In this document: positions 12,304 through 62,175 of the stretch, piece after piece | How the letters are laid out: every line of letters starts with the position of its first letter | Numbering within the stretch: position 1 is the first letter of the stretch | From: Pyrenula massariospora | Lineage: Eukaryota > Ascomycota > Eurotiomycetes > Pyrenulales > Pyrenulaceae | Assembly: GCA_021030905.1 (NCBI GenBank) | Contig: JAGFMI010000008.1 | Span: forward strand, 744,001 to 808,000 | Length of the DNA: 64,000 bases | Reading direction: 5' to 3' | Position numbers and translations under genes: made by a program | The notes under the pieces: model-generated | Told to the model about the DNA's origin: nothing | Seen by the model: the letters and a program-made list of their open reading frames with translations, nothing else | Databases searched by the model: none

Positions 12304-13902
12304 ATGATGTCGTCCGAAAAGGGTCAGAGTATCTTGCCACTCAAAAGCCCGATCCTTATACCCGTAAAGCATGATAGCCTTGAGTCGATGAAGAGTCCCA
12401 AGCTGCAACCTGTTGAGCCAAGATGGCAGGTTCGGGATATCTCATCTCAAAAATTTACTCGCATTGCAGCAGCATGCATTCTGACAATTCTTTTTCTCTT
12501 CTCACCTCTGTACAAGATGCATCAATATGCAACCCGAATGATCATCGAGGGGTCCATCTCACACGCCCAGAACCTTACAGCTGAAGATCTTCCACCCACT
12601 GAATTCGGAGCCATGGCTCAACGAGTGTCCGCTATAGCCCAAGTCGCGGAGTTCGTGAAGAAGTACCCTAAATTGGATCATAAGCCTCTCAATGAGCTGA
12701 TACAGCACGCTTTCCCTTGGTGGGTCCAGTCACAAGAGATCTACACTCCCTGGCAGAAAAGTCAGACCCCATCACTGGACTCCGATACCTCCCTTATCAT
12801 TCCAGTCGGAAAATCCAAAGCCAACTTCGCGGGTGACCTGATCGCCACACTCCGCCAAGTAATAGGATCAAAGATTCCAATTGAAATCGCCTATGCAGGG
12901 CACACCGATCTTCCCCTCGCCGTGCGCGAAAAATTCCGCCTCATAGGCGGACCCAACATCTCCTTCCTTGACGTCACCGAAATATTCGACGACGACTACA
13001 TCTCCTTCGCGCAGGGCACATGGGCCATCAAACCCTTCGCCATGCTCGCGTCCAAATATCCCAGAACTATCCTCGTCGATGCCGATACCGTCATCTTCTC
13101 TTCCCCGGACAATATCTTTGACGAAGACCCCGAACTCCGCCGCACAGGAATCCGACTATTCCACGACCGAGTCCTCGAGCCTCACCCGGAACGCACGTCT
13201 TGGATCAAAGCCACCCTCGCCGCCGCCGGCCGCGCCAATCTCCCCACTCCCGCCCTAAACAACTCCTTAATCTGGAACGGCGTTATCGGCGATATGGTGG
13301 ATAGCGGGATGGTCCTCTGGGACAAGTCCCGCCCCAGCACCTTCCTCGCCCTGATGTACGTCGCATGGATGAACACCCGCGAGCCCCGCCTCAGCGAGAC
13401 CTACGAGCGCTGGTACGGCGATAAGGAGACCTTTTTCCTTGGACCCGAATTCCTGGGCGTCGAGTACGCCATCGCGCCCGAGTACTCCGGCCACATTGGC
13501 AACGTGGAGCCGGGCTGGAGCTCCCCCGCCGAGGGGCCCGAGATGTTGAGTCTGTGCTCTGAGCACGTCTTCCATGCCATCCGCACCACCACCGGGACTA
13601 CATCATCGTCTGCGCGGAACGGGAAGCCGAAGCCGGAGTTCAAACCCTTCTGGCTGAATGGTGGGCTGTACTTCTCGAAGAACCACCTCAGCTTCGGGTA
13701 TGCAAATTTTTCTCATTGGTGGCCGGGGAGTGCGCGGCATGAGAGTCAGCAGTGGCAATTCCGACACAGTCCACAGGGCACCGGGTGGATGTGCGCGCGG
13801 ACTCCGAAGGAGGAGGTGAGGGAGATTGGACCGGATGATGACTTTAGAGCGCTGTGGGAGAGGATGGTAGAAGTCAGTTCGGGGTTGAAGGGCATCTTTT
13901 GA
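12304..13902 (+). CDS. Alpha-mannosyltransferase, GT71 (MNN1/MNT type), type II membrane protein
   Basis: A single-exon ORF of 532 codons starting with two tandem ATGs at 12304 and 12307. It is a Golgi type II membrane enzyme in design: a short basic cytosolic tail, one membrane anchor (FTRIAAACILTILFLFSPLY, about residues 51-70), a stem, then the catalytic domain. GT71 enzymes add alpha-1,3-mannose to N- or O-glycans using GDP-mannose. Visible motifs are WAIKPFAMLASKYPRTILVD followed by the metal-binding DAD (D259-D261) and the later SGMVLWDKSR and WYGDKETFFLGPEF segments, which are typical of the family. Codon third positions change from C-rich to G-rich near 13500. It acts in the same broad pathway as ALG3 at 38.7 kb, but the two are not linked. 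Confidence 0.88.
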   Translation: MMSSEKGQSILPLKSPILIPVKHDSLESMKSPKLQPVEPRWQVRDISSQKFTRIAAACILTILFLFSPLYKMHQYATRMIIEGSISHAQNLTAEDLPPTEFGAMAQRVSAIAQVAEFVKKYPKLDHKPLNELIQHAFPWWVQSQEIYTPWQKSQTPSLDSDTSLIIPVGKSKANFAGDLIATLRQVIGSKIPIEIAYAGHTDLPLAVREKFRLIGGPNISFLDVTEIFDDDYISFAQGTWAIKPFAMLASKYPRTILVDADTVIFSSPDNIFDEDPELRRTGIRLFHDRVLEPHPERTSWIKATLAAAGRANLPTPALNNSLIWNGVIGDMVDSGMVLWDKSRPSTFLALMYVAWMNTREPRLSETYERWYGDKETFFLGPEFLGVEYAIAPEYSGHIGNVEPGWSSPAEGPEMLSLCSEHVFHAIRTTTGTTSSSARNGKPKPEFKPFWLNGGLYFSKNHLSFGYANFSHWWPGSARHESQQWQFRHSPQGTGWMCARTPKEEVREIGPDDDFRALWERMVEVSSGLKGIF

Positions 13903-26442: not shown

Positions 26443-27678
26443 TTATTTTGATGCCCCGCTTGCCTTGCCATCAGGCTTGGCAAATGTAGCAGCGACAATC
26501 ATGGGGAAGCAAACGGTCGCTTCGACAAACACCTAGGTGTGAGGATTAGTACATTGGCATGAGAGGTTCTAGCTCTCCGGGACCGATGGTGACATGCCTT
26601 CACAGAGCTTGCCCCGACCTTAATCTTGCCCCAGCTCACAGCCTCATCCGTACTTGCACCTGCATCGCTGCCATCGAATTCCTGATTAGTGTTGATATAT
26701 ACGGCGCTCTCAGCCCCATTTCTCATTAAGCAAGCATTTGCGATATGATGTTTGATGACACCTCCTCCTAGAATGATCATGCCGGCTCGCTTCGCATAGA
26801 CACCGACTCTATTGATGCGTCGAATGTCTTCTACAATGTCAATTTTCAACTGAAGAGGCGATGACTTGAAAGTGTGAAAGTATGCCATGTCACCAAGACT
26901 GCCGTCCATTAGCGCCGGACAGAAGATTGGGATATCATTTTTATATGCCCAGTAGCAGACTGAGCGCTCATCATTGATCTCTTTCCCGAGACGATGGATG
27001 ACCTTAGATGGTGTCCAATTAATTTCGTCTTCAGTGCCTTTGCTCGCCTCCTGCTCCTCCAACATCTTGTCCAGAATCGGTACGATCCAGTCTTCAAATG
27101 CGCAATAGTTCTTGTTCGGAACCAACAAATTACCGATTCTATTAACACCTTGTGCCCGGAGCGATCCACCTGTTGCGTTAAATGAGCCAATATATGTATC
27201 TCCTAAGCATTTGATCAAATCTTCTTCAATACCGCCGGCAGTCGTCACCACGGCTGATACATGTTCGTGCTCGAGTAGGTACCGAAAGACGCCACGAAGG
27301 CCGGAAGAAATGAGATTGGAGGTATAGCCAAGGAATATTGTTGTTTTCTCGCCAGTTTCGGGACATCGCCAGGACCTCTAGTAAAGTATTAGTTTCTCGA
27401 AGAAGCGAAGGAGCTTAGAGGCGGTCGCCACAGGGCTAGAGAACCCATACCATCTCGTTTATAATTCGAACAGCTTCACCAATTGAGGTTGCTTGAAAGC
27501 CCATATTGCTTGTGCCGCTGATAAGATCTTCGACCGTGATAGACCTTCCCGCAAACTCATTGAAATTCAACTCCTCAACTTTTTGCGCATCTTGTGGCAT
27601 GTCAATCGAGTGCTTTAGGACCGCTGCTGTGGATACAGATGGCGCAGCCCTTGCAGTGGTACTCCCATTCGTCGTCAT
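26443..27678 (-). CDS. DYS1: Deoxyhypusine synthase (EC 2.5.1.46)
   Basis: Three exons, 27678-27451, 27377-26598 and 26532-26443, give 365 residues. The enzyme uses NAD and spermidine to put a 4-aminobutyl group on one lysine of eIF5A, the first step of hypusine formation in the cytosol. Family motifs are all present: [35 protein letters not shown], the substrate loop [16 protein letters not shown] and the active-site [12 protein letters not shown], with the catalytic Lys near residue 285. Intron 1 is GT-AG (GTATGG...ACTAG). The second intron starts with GC rather than GT (AAG|GCATGT...CCTAG|GTG); no GT donor keeps the C-terminal frame [20 protein letters not shown], so a GC-AG intron is the best reading. 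Confidence 0.93.
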
Positions 27679-60214: not shown

Positions 60215-60897
60215 AGGTATAATTTAGAGTACAAACGGATTTCGATATGAGCAAGCGAGATTTATCGAATTGCAATCCCCTCATGGCAATCCGGTTCGCC
60301 CGTTCTTGGAGCAGCGGCCTCCACCGTCATAGCTAAAATAGACCGAGGTCGATGAGACACTGTTAGAAGCAAGCGATATTCATAGAATTGCAATCCCCTC
60401 ACGGCAACCCGGCTCACCCGTTCTTAGAGCAGCGGCCTCCGCCGTCATAGCCACAGTAGACCGAGGTCGATGAGAAACTATTAAAAGCCAACAGGATTAT
60501 TTACTTAGCTAACTACAATTTTCTTCTAAAGAATTACTTATTAAGCCATGCCTATGTAGACAGCGCACTTCATTGTATCAAATACGGCCTGGCTAGTCGC
60601 CGCGTTCGATTCATTGAGCAGGTTGTCTCTGTGAACCCGCGCTCCGATCAATCCGCAGGGTATTTTGTCATGCAGTATCAAAGTCTGGCGGGTTTGGTGT
60701 CGAGATTTCAAGCTTTAAGTTCGCTGTGGAATTAGATAGAGGAGTTGAGACTGGATGTGACATAGGTACCACCTATGATAGATTGCGCCGCTAGTTATAG
60801 AATTATGCGGTTGAATATATTGTAGACCAAAAAGGTCGTCGTTAGACTTGTAATGATTTATTTTATGATTTGTTTTGCCTTCAAGAATCGGCAATTT
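60215..60897. other. Intergenic region with a tandem duplication
   Basis: It holds the 118-bp direct duplication listed separately and otherwise no gene. AT-rich sequence precedes the tRNA gene. Confidence 0.4.
60251..60486. repeat. Two-copy 118-bp tandem direct repeat, transition-rich divergence
   Basis: Copies at 60251-60368 and 60369-60486 align without gaps. I count about 15 differences, of which about 11 are C/T or G/A changes. Shared blocks include GAATTGCAATCCCCTCA, GAGCAGCGGCCTCC and TAGACCGAGGTCGATGAGA. Such a pattern fits mutation of duplicated DNA by RIP, though the copies are shorter than the usual RIP length threshold. Confidence 0.8.
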
Positions 60898-61046
60898 GAC
60901 ACTATGGCCGAGTGGTTAAGGTATGGCAAATATTTTACCGATCGTCGGAGTTCTCTAACGCTTTTCCAGGCGACAGACTCGAAGGTTCCGAACTTTGTAG
61001 CCATCTGTTGGGTTCGCCCGCACAGGTTCAAATCCTGTTGGTGTCG
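60898..61046 (+). tRNA. tRNA-Ser(CGA) with canonical intron and an extra D-stem insert
   Basis: Removing two inserts leaves a complete class II serine tRNA. The acceptor stem GACACTA (60898-60904) pairs with TGGTGTC (61039-61045), with discriminator G61046. The anticodon stem-loop is ACAGA-CTCGAAA-TCTGT, anticodon CGA. A long variable arm (GGGTTCGCCC) and T-arm ACAGG-TTCAAAT-CCTGT (the B box) follow; the A box TGGCCGAGTGG is intact. The first insert is the usual anticodon-loop intron, 60984-61002 (19 nt, between positions 37 and 38), as in yeast tRNA-Ser(CGA). The second, 60921-60969 (49 nt), splits the 3' strand of the D stem after AAG: it begins GTATGG, has CTCTAAC with the branch A at 60958, and ends TTTTCCAG, which are the marks of a spliceosomal intron. 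If it is not removed the D arm cannot form. Confidence 0.88.
60921..60969 (+). other. mRNA-type intron-like insert inside tRNA-Ser(CGA)
   Basis: 49 nt with donor GTATGG, branch CTAAC 11 nt before the acceptor, pyrimidine-rich end and CAG. It sits at an AAG|G protosplice site. Exact removal restores the D stem GCC/GGC. Confidence 0.8.
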
Positions 61047-61053
61047 TTTATTG

Positions 61054-61057
61054 TTTT
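61054..61057 (+). terminator. Pol III terminator
   Basis: A T4 run 8 nt after the tRNA 3' end, the usual RNA polymerase III stop signal. Confidence 0.5.
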
Positions 61058-61289
61058 GCTTCCCTTTTAACTTGTAGCCATGTTAAATGAGTCGTAGTCA
61101 TAGAGGAGTGGGCTTTTTTGGAGTGGTTTTGTTTTGCGCGTGATTGCGGAAACGGAGGACTTGGGAGATCGCAGGTGAGGGGAACATATGCGGCGAGGCA
61201 AGGCTGGATCTCGGTCGTCTAGGTAATATGCGAATCGACGAGACTTTCTATCGTTACTAGAAAGATGTGGTAGATTCTTTGGCTCGGTA

Positions 61290-61562
61290 TCCCTTACTAG
61301 TCGGTAAAGGGCCAAGTTTCTGTAGTTCTATTTTCAACTATCTAATTATCCACCATTAATACTCTATGTTGTTTATTTTAATATTTATTTAGATCGCAAA
61401 GAGCTGTACTATATATAATATAATATTTTCTATATTAATTTTACTTGTAATGTTATAAATTGCTTAAAATATTACTTAAATTCTCCTCCGAGGGGGAATG
61501 TGTAGATTTGATGGGGATGCGGAGAACTACAAAAACTTGGCCCTTTACCGACTAGTAAGGGA
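61290..61562. mobile_element. MITE with 39-bp terminal inverted repeats and TA target site
   Basis: A 273-bp non-coding element. The left end (61290-61328) starts TCCCTTACTAGTCGGTAAAG; the right end (61524-61562) is its reverse complement with one mismatch in 39. TA flanks both sides (61288-61289 and 61563-61564), the target duplication of Tc1/mariner-type elements. The interior is about 195 bp of AT-rich sequence with no ORF, so it must have been moved by a transposase from elsewhere. The near-identical ends suggest a fairly recent insertion. It lies 240 bp from the tRNA gene. Confidence 0.85.
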
Positions 61563-62175
61563 TAGCTGCGAAAGAGAGTGTGCAACGCCCCCCTTGTACG
61601 GAGAGCGAACGCCGGACCATGTTAACGCTGTTTGAATTCACATCGGAAAGTAAGGTACGACTTATGATTACAAGTTTTCGCTGCTCGAAAGACGGCTCAG
61701 CAGCACACTGCTCTTGTCCTAATCTACCACGCGAAAGCTAGAGGAGAAGCCACATAAAGAGCATCCAGCTACATCACACATCTTGCATTACGCTACGGCA
61801 CGCGGAGCTCAATTTTCCAGAATCGAAATATGAATTGATCTATAAAGCAACACTCAAATCAAAATGCATTTCAAAGCTCCATGGCCCCATGTCCGCCGGC
61901 GAAGCATGCTCCCTCAAATGCAAGCAAAGTCCTCCCAAAGTAAAATCCGAAGCGAATTCAAAGACGCAAAAGACCGCTTCTTCCCATTATTTGTCTTCAT
62001 CGGCCCGGCTCAGCGTTGCGGTCGTAGGAGATGGTCGTTCAGCAATCTCTGCGTCGTAAAGTGTAAAAAATGTAATAGCAAGAACTGATTTCGTTATGTT
62101 AGCGCATCCGATCATGACTCGTAGAGATATGAGGCGTGAGTCGTACCTCCAATCCTCGGCCCCAGGCCGGAAGGA
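61563..62175. other. Intergenic region, 0.6 kb
   Basis: The right flank of the MITE and 3' flank of the small CaaX-peptide gene. Overlapping plus-strand ORFs at 61835-62088 lack motifs. No gene called. Confidence 0.35.

Follow-up and report, generated by a model that had tools for sequence, protein, structure and literature searches.

Spliceosomal-type introns in the tRNA-Ser(CGA) gene and many other nuclear tRNA genes of Pyrenula massariospora

Introduction

Canonical introns of eukaryotic tRNA genes occupy a fixed site between positions 37 and 38, are cut by the tRNA endonuclease, and have neither GT-AG ends nor a branch site. In archaea, red algae and nucleomorphs, bulge-helix-bulge introns occur at atypical sites, and one tRNA may contain several. 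Spliceosomes normally work on Pol II transcripts. Tani and Ohshima in 1989 and Canzler et al. in 2016 are said to have described mRNA-type introns in fungal U6 snRNA genes. The accessible part of a 2017 paper names U3 and U6 as the only small structured RNAs then known to be often interrupted, and states that U3 introns are removed by the pre-mRNA splicing machinery (PMC5832005). Ascomycete rDNA carries spliceosomal introns (Cubero 2000 and Bhattacharya 2000, via the accessible part of PMC11889510), and the SRP RNA of Cryptococcus is reported to have no intron (PMC4605306). Within these portions of the literature, U6, U3 and rDNA already provide examples of structural RNAs with mRNA-type introns. 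A 2026 review, in its accessible sections, describes eukaryotic tRNA splicing without the spliceosome and gives no exception (PMC13149111).

The locus described here, a tRNA-Ser(CGA) gene of Pyrenula massariospora, shares features with each of these systems. As in fungal U6, mRNA-type introns interrupt a Pol III structural RNA, and a U6 copy of the same genome is affected as well; the host, in contrast, is tRNA, many genes are involved, and a gene may hold up to two such introns in addition to a 37/38 intron. The fungal U3 snoRNA is likewise a structured RNA with introns, and the 2017 statement on U3 and U6, in the part of the paper available, leaves out tRNA. The rDNA introns provide a parallel within the Pezizomycotina, as they are mRNA-type introns in a structural RNA (PMC11889510, in part), but rDNA yields a Pol I transcript. 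Canonical 37/38 introns co-occur in many of the genes reported here, including the tRNA-Ser(CGA) gene. The introns of archaea, red algae and nucleomorphs resemble the present inserts in their unusual sites and differ in the central helix, which was absent from all 30 inserts in a weakly discriminating test.

Results

The window, a stretch of 64,000 nt (C32:744001-808000), belongs to an assembly of 37.8 Mb in 33 contigs. The window protein at 12304-13899 finds its top match (64% along the entire length) in Pyrenula ochraceoflavens, whose genus belongs to the Pyrenulales (Eurotiomycetes). On its plus strand, the tRNA-Ser(CGA) gene with both introns covers 60898..61046, as identified by the Rfam model RF00005, ARAGORN (with the first insert removed) and our cloverleaf parse. 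Exon 1 (60898..60920, positions 1-23) contains an intact A box (60905-60915). It is followed by a 49-nt intron of spliceosomal type (60921..60969) with the 5' splice site GTATGG (60921-60926), which matches the consensus at +5 and mismatches it at +6, the branch site CTAAC (60955-60959), the branch A of which lies 11 nt from the intron end, and the 3' splice site CAG (60967-60969). Exon 2 (60970..60983) extends from the 3' strand of the D stem to position 37 and includes the anticodon CGA. A 19-nt canonical tRNA intron (60984..61002) separates it from exon 3 (61003..61046, positions 38-73), in which the B box is intact (61025-61035). The 49-nt insert lies at 23/24 and hence lacks the canonical 37/38 placement, which 60984-61002 has. 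The preliminary description had reported a tRNA-Ser(CGA) gene with two inserts at these coordinates, one of them a classical 19-nt intron after position 37, and this anatomy holds. Its D-stem insert with GTATGG, CTAAC and CAG was also recovered, and its place could be refined to 23/24, within the 3' strand of that stem.

Standard searches overlooked the gene: both a whole-window scan with the default Rfam filters and ARAGORN applied to the window missed it. In E-value mode on 60700-61200, RF00005 yielded 38.3 bits (cut-off 29) over exactly 60898-61046, with long inserts in both the D arm and the anticodon loop. ARAGORN returned tRNA-Ser(cga) once 60921-60969 was deleted, although it placed the anticodon-loop intron differently. 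Deletion of the 49-nt and 19-nt introns restored a complete cloverleaf, for which our own scorer gave 6.6/7 in the acceptor stem, 5/5 in the anticodon stem, 5/5 in the T stem and a long variable arm. The ends of the 49-nt insert have four equivalent frames, one of which is GT..AG, and in a blind deletion test the GT..AG deletion was among three tied optima from 2653 distinct deletion products. A run of four T residues, 7 nt 3' of the gene (61054..61057, plus strand), is a possible, weak Pol III terminator. No TATAW was found within 70 nt upstream, unlike in 34 of the 43 genes of the main parse described below.

Repeats were observed on both sides of the gene. Upstream, at 60250-60485, a 118-nt unit is present in two head-to-tail copies that are 87% alike. 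A 277-bp element at 61288-61564, 241 nt downstream, has 42-nt terminal inverted repeats (98% complementary) and resembles a small non-autonomous DNA transposon.

The genome-wide search with RF00005 gave 41 matches from 63 scored of 1116 candidates, including matches on two small contigs (C25 and C26) regarded as mitochondrial. On C26 (15,175 bases), the tRNA matches are mirrored about the middle, perhaps owing to a palindromic misassembly of mitochondrial DNA. A low-scoring match, tRNA-Ser(AGA), showed a variable-arm insert of the form GTAAGC...TAG. Further candidates were collected by pattern searches, in which A and B boxes were sought at atypical distances from each other, A boxes alone, or a B box. 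Most of these searches produced no more matches than the reversed control pattern, so most of their matches are due to chance. The loci taken from them comprised 20 chosen by eye, 21 from one A-box search, 38 of the 65 from a second, and 80 of the 100 listed B-box places (110 matches in all).

The main parse took in 96 loci, and 43 scored at least 30 as nuclear tRNA genes; to form a tRNA, 23 of the 43 needed a total of 30 GT..AG deletions. Five of the 80 B-box loci scored at least 29, and four were accepted (L128, L147, L187 and L198), with one GT..AG insert each in L128 and L198; L190 was excluded. The initiator Met gene L002 (65.5 bits with RF00005), which the T-loop rule of the parser excludes, was counted by eye. 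The same kind of insert thus recurs across the genome: of the 48 nuclear tRNA genes parsed, a set that is incomplete and favours those whose A box is intact, 25 hold GT...AG inserts (32 in total, each 46-60 nt long), with two apiece in seven genes. The 25 include L038, a gene with two inserts and the parsed anticodon GTG, which may be Asn or Lys. At least five insert-free genes (L055, L066, L078, L147 and L187) emerged only after the RF00005 search. L073 (28.5) and L190 (29.1) were considered as standard tRNAs and rejected, being tRNA-like but failing to parse, and were not counted. These two sequences resemble each other and are tRNA-like with a long variable arm (CCCTTCGGGGG).

The 32 inserts affect the acceptor stem as well as the D, anticodon, variable and T arms. 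Among the 30 of the main parse, those on the D-arm side lie at 18/19 in three genes, at 21/22, and at 23/24 in tRNA-Ser(CGA) and tRNA-Ser(TGA). The sites 24/25 and 26/27 are used in two genes each and 25/26 in two Ile genes. Single inserts occur at 28/29, 29/30, 30/31, 32/33, 33/34 and 35/36, one in L038 adjoins 37/38, and one further insert is located in the variable arm. In the remaining part of the molecule, single inserts were found at 51/52, 54/55, 61/62, 62/63 and 63/64, followed by 69/70 in three genes, 70/71 and 71/72. The last exon of L036 is 3 nt long. In the tRNA-Trp gene L050 (C27:1324726-1325157), a GT-AG insert between T54 and T55 splits the B box. Introns of at least 8 nt at 37/38 were present in 29 parsed genes, and the genes for Asp (L053), Trp (L050), Leu(AAG) (L045) and Phe (L088) each combine a 37/38 intron with two GT-AG inserts.

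For several tRNAs, every copy found is interrupted. This applies to both copies of Trp(CCA) (L047 and L050), to both copies of Ile(AAT) (L043 and L052), and, in the main parse, to the sole copies of Phe, Asp and Ser(CGA), all of which carry GT-AG introns. A non-exhaustive search revealed no copies free of GT-AG introns for Ser(CGA), Trp, Phe, Asp or Ile(AAT). When the spliced Ser(CGA) sequence was used as a BLAST query against the genome, the window gene was the sole locus returned.

The 30 inserts of the main parse (46-60 nt, median 50) show splice-site signals beyond their GT and AG ends. Position +5 is G in 25 of the 30; the 3' ends are TAG in 15, CAG in 10 and AAG in five, giving YAG in 25; and CTNAY is the best branch-site candidate in 21, a count made without a shuffle control. 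These consensus counts are inflated because the main parser breaks ties by splice consensus. In the blind test, every 38-90-nt stretch was deleted, with the other insert pre-removed in genes that have two, and the products were ranked by cloverleaf alone. GT..AG was in the best class for 23 of the 30 inserts, including the window intron, as compared with six for the next dinucleotide pair; the best class held a mean of 3.8 of the 256 dinucleotide pairs. Where a single optimal product included GT..AG (15 inserts), +5 was G in 13. The blind optimum lacked GT..AG for seven inserts (the first of L036, L038 and L053, and those of L044, L046, L067 and L083), most of which interrupt a loop or lie in the variable arm. 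Shifting both deletion ends off the GT-AG place lowered the mean cloverleaf score in either direction. The acceptor- and T-stem inserts are not independent of the hypothesis, because they were found by allowing GT-AG deletions. tRNA-Ser(TGA), a paralog of the window gene, has a poor 5' site (GTCATT). ARAGORN was rejected as a blind deletion scorer for being too lenient on loop sizes, and our own cloverleaf scorer was used instead.

The spliced products were then assessed by their pairing. We aligned 18 of the 19 spliced class I products, omitting L038 as doubtful and excluding class II genes. Pairing was observed in 96.3% of the 378 stem cells, as compared with 59.3% in shuffles, and sliding the partners by one column reduced it to at most 45.0%. 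The covariation score was 1.059 versus 0.284 after shuffling, and none of 500 shuffles reached 1.059. The alignment yielded the cloverleaf de novo, with 20 of 21 pairs changed on both sides.

Decoys showed how far the allowed deletions can go by themselves. Of the 59 A-box loci, 52 scored at most 24.8 after a per-deletion penalty, even when as many as three GT-AG deletions were permitted. One of these 52 low scorers, L083, became a gene once the branch-site filter was dropped in the main parse, in which seven of the 59 reached 30. Among the 80 B-box loci, 75 scored at most 14.1 or gave no parse, which is a weak null because all but three of the 75 gave no parse. Since the decoys stay low, free GT-AG deletion does not make tRNAs of ordinary sequence. 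As far as sequence can tell, the inserts have the marks of U2-type introns, namely GT...AG where the exons require them, a 5' consensus and a branch site.

For comparison with mRNA introns, the deoxyhypusine synthase gene of the window (26446-27678, minus strand) offered two homology-supported introns. The GT-AG intron (73 nt) begins with GTATGG, the same 5' hexamer as in the tRNA-Ser(CGA) intron; the other (65 nt) is best read as GC-AG. These were the only two mRNA introns compared, and both are longer than the tRNA-gene inserts (46-60 nt). Scanning the window for mRNA-intron motifs gave fewer intron-like stretches (84) than shuffles did (146) and so lent no support. An ORF-junction search for such introns was discarded as chance-saturated, with 296 hits for GT-AG versus 310-437 for seven other pairs.

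Kinship between the introns was confined to paralogous genes. In an intron-versus-intron comparison, the pairs L039/L040 (68) and L047/L048 (58) exceeded the highest shuffle maximum of 37, and the next pair scored 35. The introns are identical at 46 of 60 columns in L039/L040 and at 39 of 49 columns in L047/L048. Three of the four 60-nt flanks of these pairs align at about 50%, and the 3' flank of L039/L040 at 36 of 44. Introner-like elements were considered and dropped, as the 30 introns share no sequence family beyond the two paralog pairs. L048 (C22:588881-589001) is a Trp-like tRNA gene whose anticodon, TTA, would read the stop codon UAA; it shares the D-stem intron of tRNA-Trp L047, with the splice signals intact, and may be a copy in decay or else a natural ochre suppressor. 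The introns of tRNA-Ser(CGA) and tRNA-Ser(TGA), both at 23/24, are identical at 27 of 62 columns. The 23/24 intron of tRNA-Ser(CGA) is probably old, because the two genes share the site and their introns no longer align.

The flanks of the interrupted genes are Pol III-like. TATAW occurs within 70 nt upstream of 19 of the 23 insert genes and 15 of the 20 insert-free genes, versus 7% of 450 decoy stretches. T5 follows within 37 nt of the gene end in 22 of 23 insert genes and 13 of 20 insert-free genes, versus 2% of decoy stretches. No T5 run was observed inside the 30 introns, where 2.5 were expected. In nine of the 23 insert genes, a T-arm or acceptor insert precedes the last exon; a T run follows each of these nine 3' ends and supports them without recourse to the splice sites. 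Since the locus searches required intact A boxes, their presence does not count as evidence for Pol III. On these signals, the interrupted tRNA genes fit live Pol III genes.

The genome contains an uninterrupted U6 gene (L062, 77.5 bits) and a second copy, L063 (C27:330471 onward), which matches positions 1-59 of the 105 of the U6 model. Three GT-AG introns (49, 49 and 51 nt) interrupt L063, and between the first and the second lies a 5-nt exon, ATTAG, which adjoins the ACAGAGA and AGC elements. With the three introns deleted, L063 aligns to L062 end to end. A non-tRNA structural RNA gene is therefore also affected in this genome, in keeping with the earlier view of the D-stem insert as a spliceosomal-type intron with U6 as its precedent.

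Discussion

We consider it very probable that U2-type introns reside in many tRNA genes of this fungus, and that the pre-tRNAs, most likely made by Pol III, are matured by the spliceosome together with the tRNA endonuclease. Ordinary U2-type introns of about 50 nt would have settled in many nuclear tRNA genes, tRNA-Ser(CGA) included. This gene would give rise to a single pre-tRNA, with Pol III the most likely polymerase; the spliceosome would excise its GT-AG intron, and the GT-AG introns of other pre-tRNAs, and the tRNA endonuclease and ligase would excise the 37/38 intron, leaving a normal and presumably functional tRNA. As for the entry of the introns, the leading idea, borrowed from U6, is that they may have reverse-spliced into tRNA that was then reverse-transcribed; reverse splicing is a possible origin.

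The most familiar setting for a spliceosome would be a Pol II transcript, and the tRNAs could be embedded in such transcripts and spliced as part of them, with Pol III uninvolved. The split B box of L050 also agrees with this. The frequency of TATAW and T5 around the insert genes, far above the decoy level, and the lack of T5 runs in the introns, which fits Pol III, make a pure Pol II origin improbable. The preliminary description had regarded the insert as a single accident in a copy that might be dead, and this view was not supported: 25 of the 48 parsed genes hold the same kind of intron, and the non-exhaustive genome search found no second tRNA-Ser(CGA) gene. tRNA pseudogenes do occur in the genome, since the T stem of L029, a parsed gene without inserts, has decayed, and the four-T terminator and missing upstream TATAW of the window copy would suit a dead gene left by a one-off insertion. 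Its exons, on the other hand, form a full cloverleaf, the inserts of the two paralog pairs are better kept than three of their four flanks, and insert-free genes for Trp, Phe and Asp were likewise not found in that search. A pseudogene is accordingly very unlikely.

Excision by the tRNA endonuclease from a bulge-helix-bulge would account for inserts away from 37/38, as in archaea, red algae and nucleomorphs, in a host that does have endonuclease-type introns (the 29 genes noted above). A 4-bp central helix between 3-nt bulges was present at the GT-AG cut in none of the 30 inserts, although this test discriminates weakly because only two of the 29 canonical introns pass it. GT, G at +5, a branch site and AG are unexpected for endonuclease introns, and we give this reading a probability that is slimmer still. 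The window gene alone would not dispel the suspicion of an assembly error or a chance array of splice-like motifs, given the four equivalent frames of its boundaries. The pattern is found on many contigs and in various isoacceptors, and the decoys stay far below the threshold, which leaves such an artefact a negligible chance. Spliceosomal introns in pre-tRNAs remain the preferred explanation.

The introns in the tRNA genes themselves look ordinary, to judge by their sequences. As far as can be seen, the novelty lies in tRNA as the host, in how many genes are affected and in the combination of two kinds of splicing. A search at the level of titles and abstract openings, in a coverage with most subscription papers and all preprints outside it, found no paper that describes introns of the spliceosomal kind in tRNA genes. 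The insertion sites are distributed over a molecule of known structure and form a direct record against which intron gain by reverse splicing into RNA, a long-standing question, can be tested.

Should these genes be functional, the spliceosome would process precursors just 120-200 nt long, which are probably Pol III transcripts, handle a last exon of 3 nt (L036) and cut within stems. The supply of tRNA would then be tied to splicing. Because mRNA-type introns sit in many of its tRNA genes, the fungus probably needs the spliceosome to make its tRNAs. It is likely, though less firmly held than the presence of the introns and their splicing, that maturation is obligately dual and that translation would be impossible without the spliceosome, with at least Trp, Phe, Asp, Ile and Ser available only from genes with spliceosomal introns.
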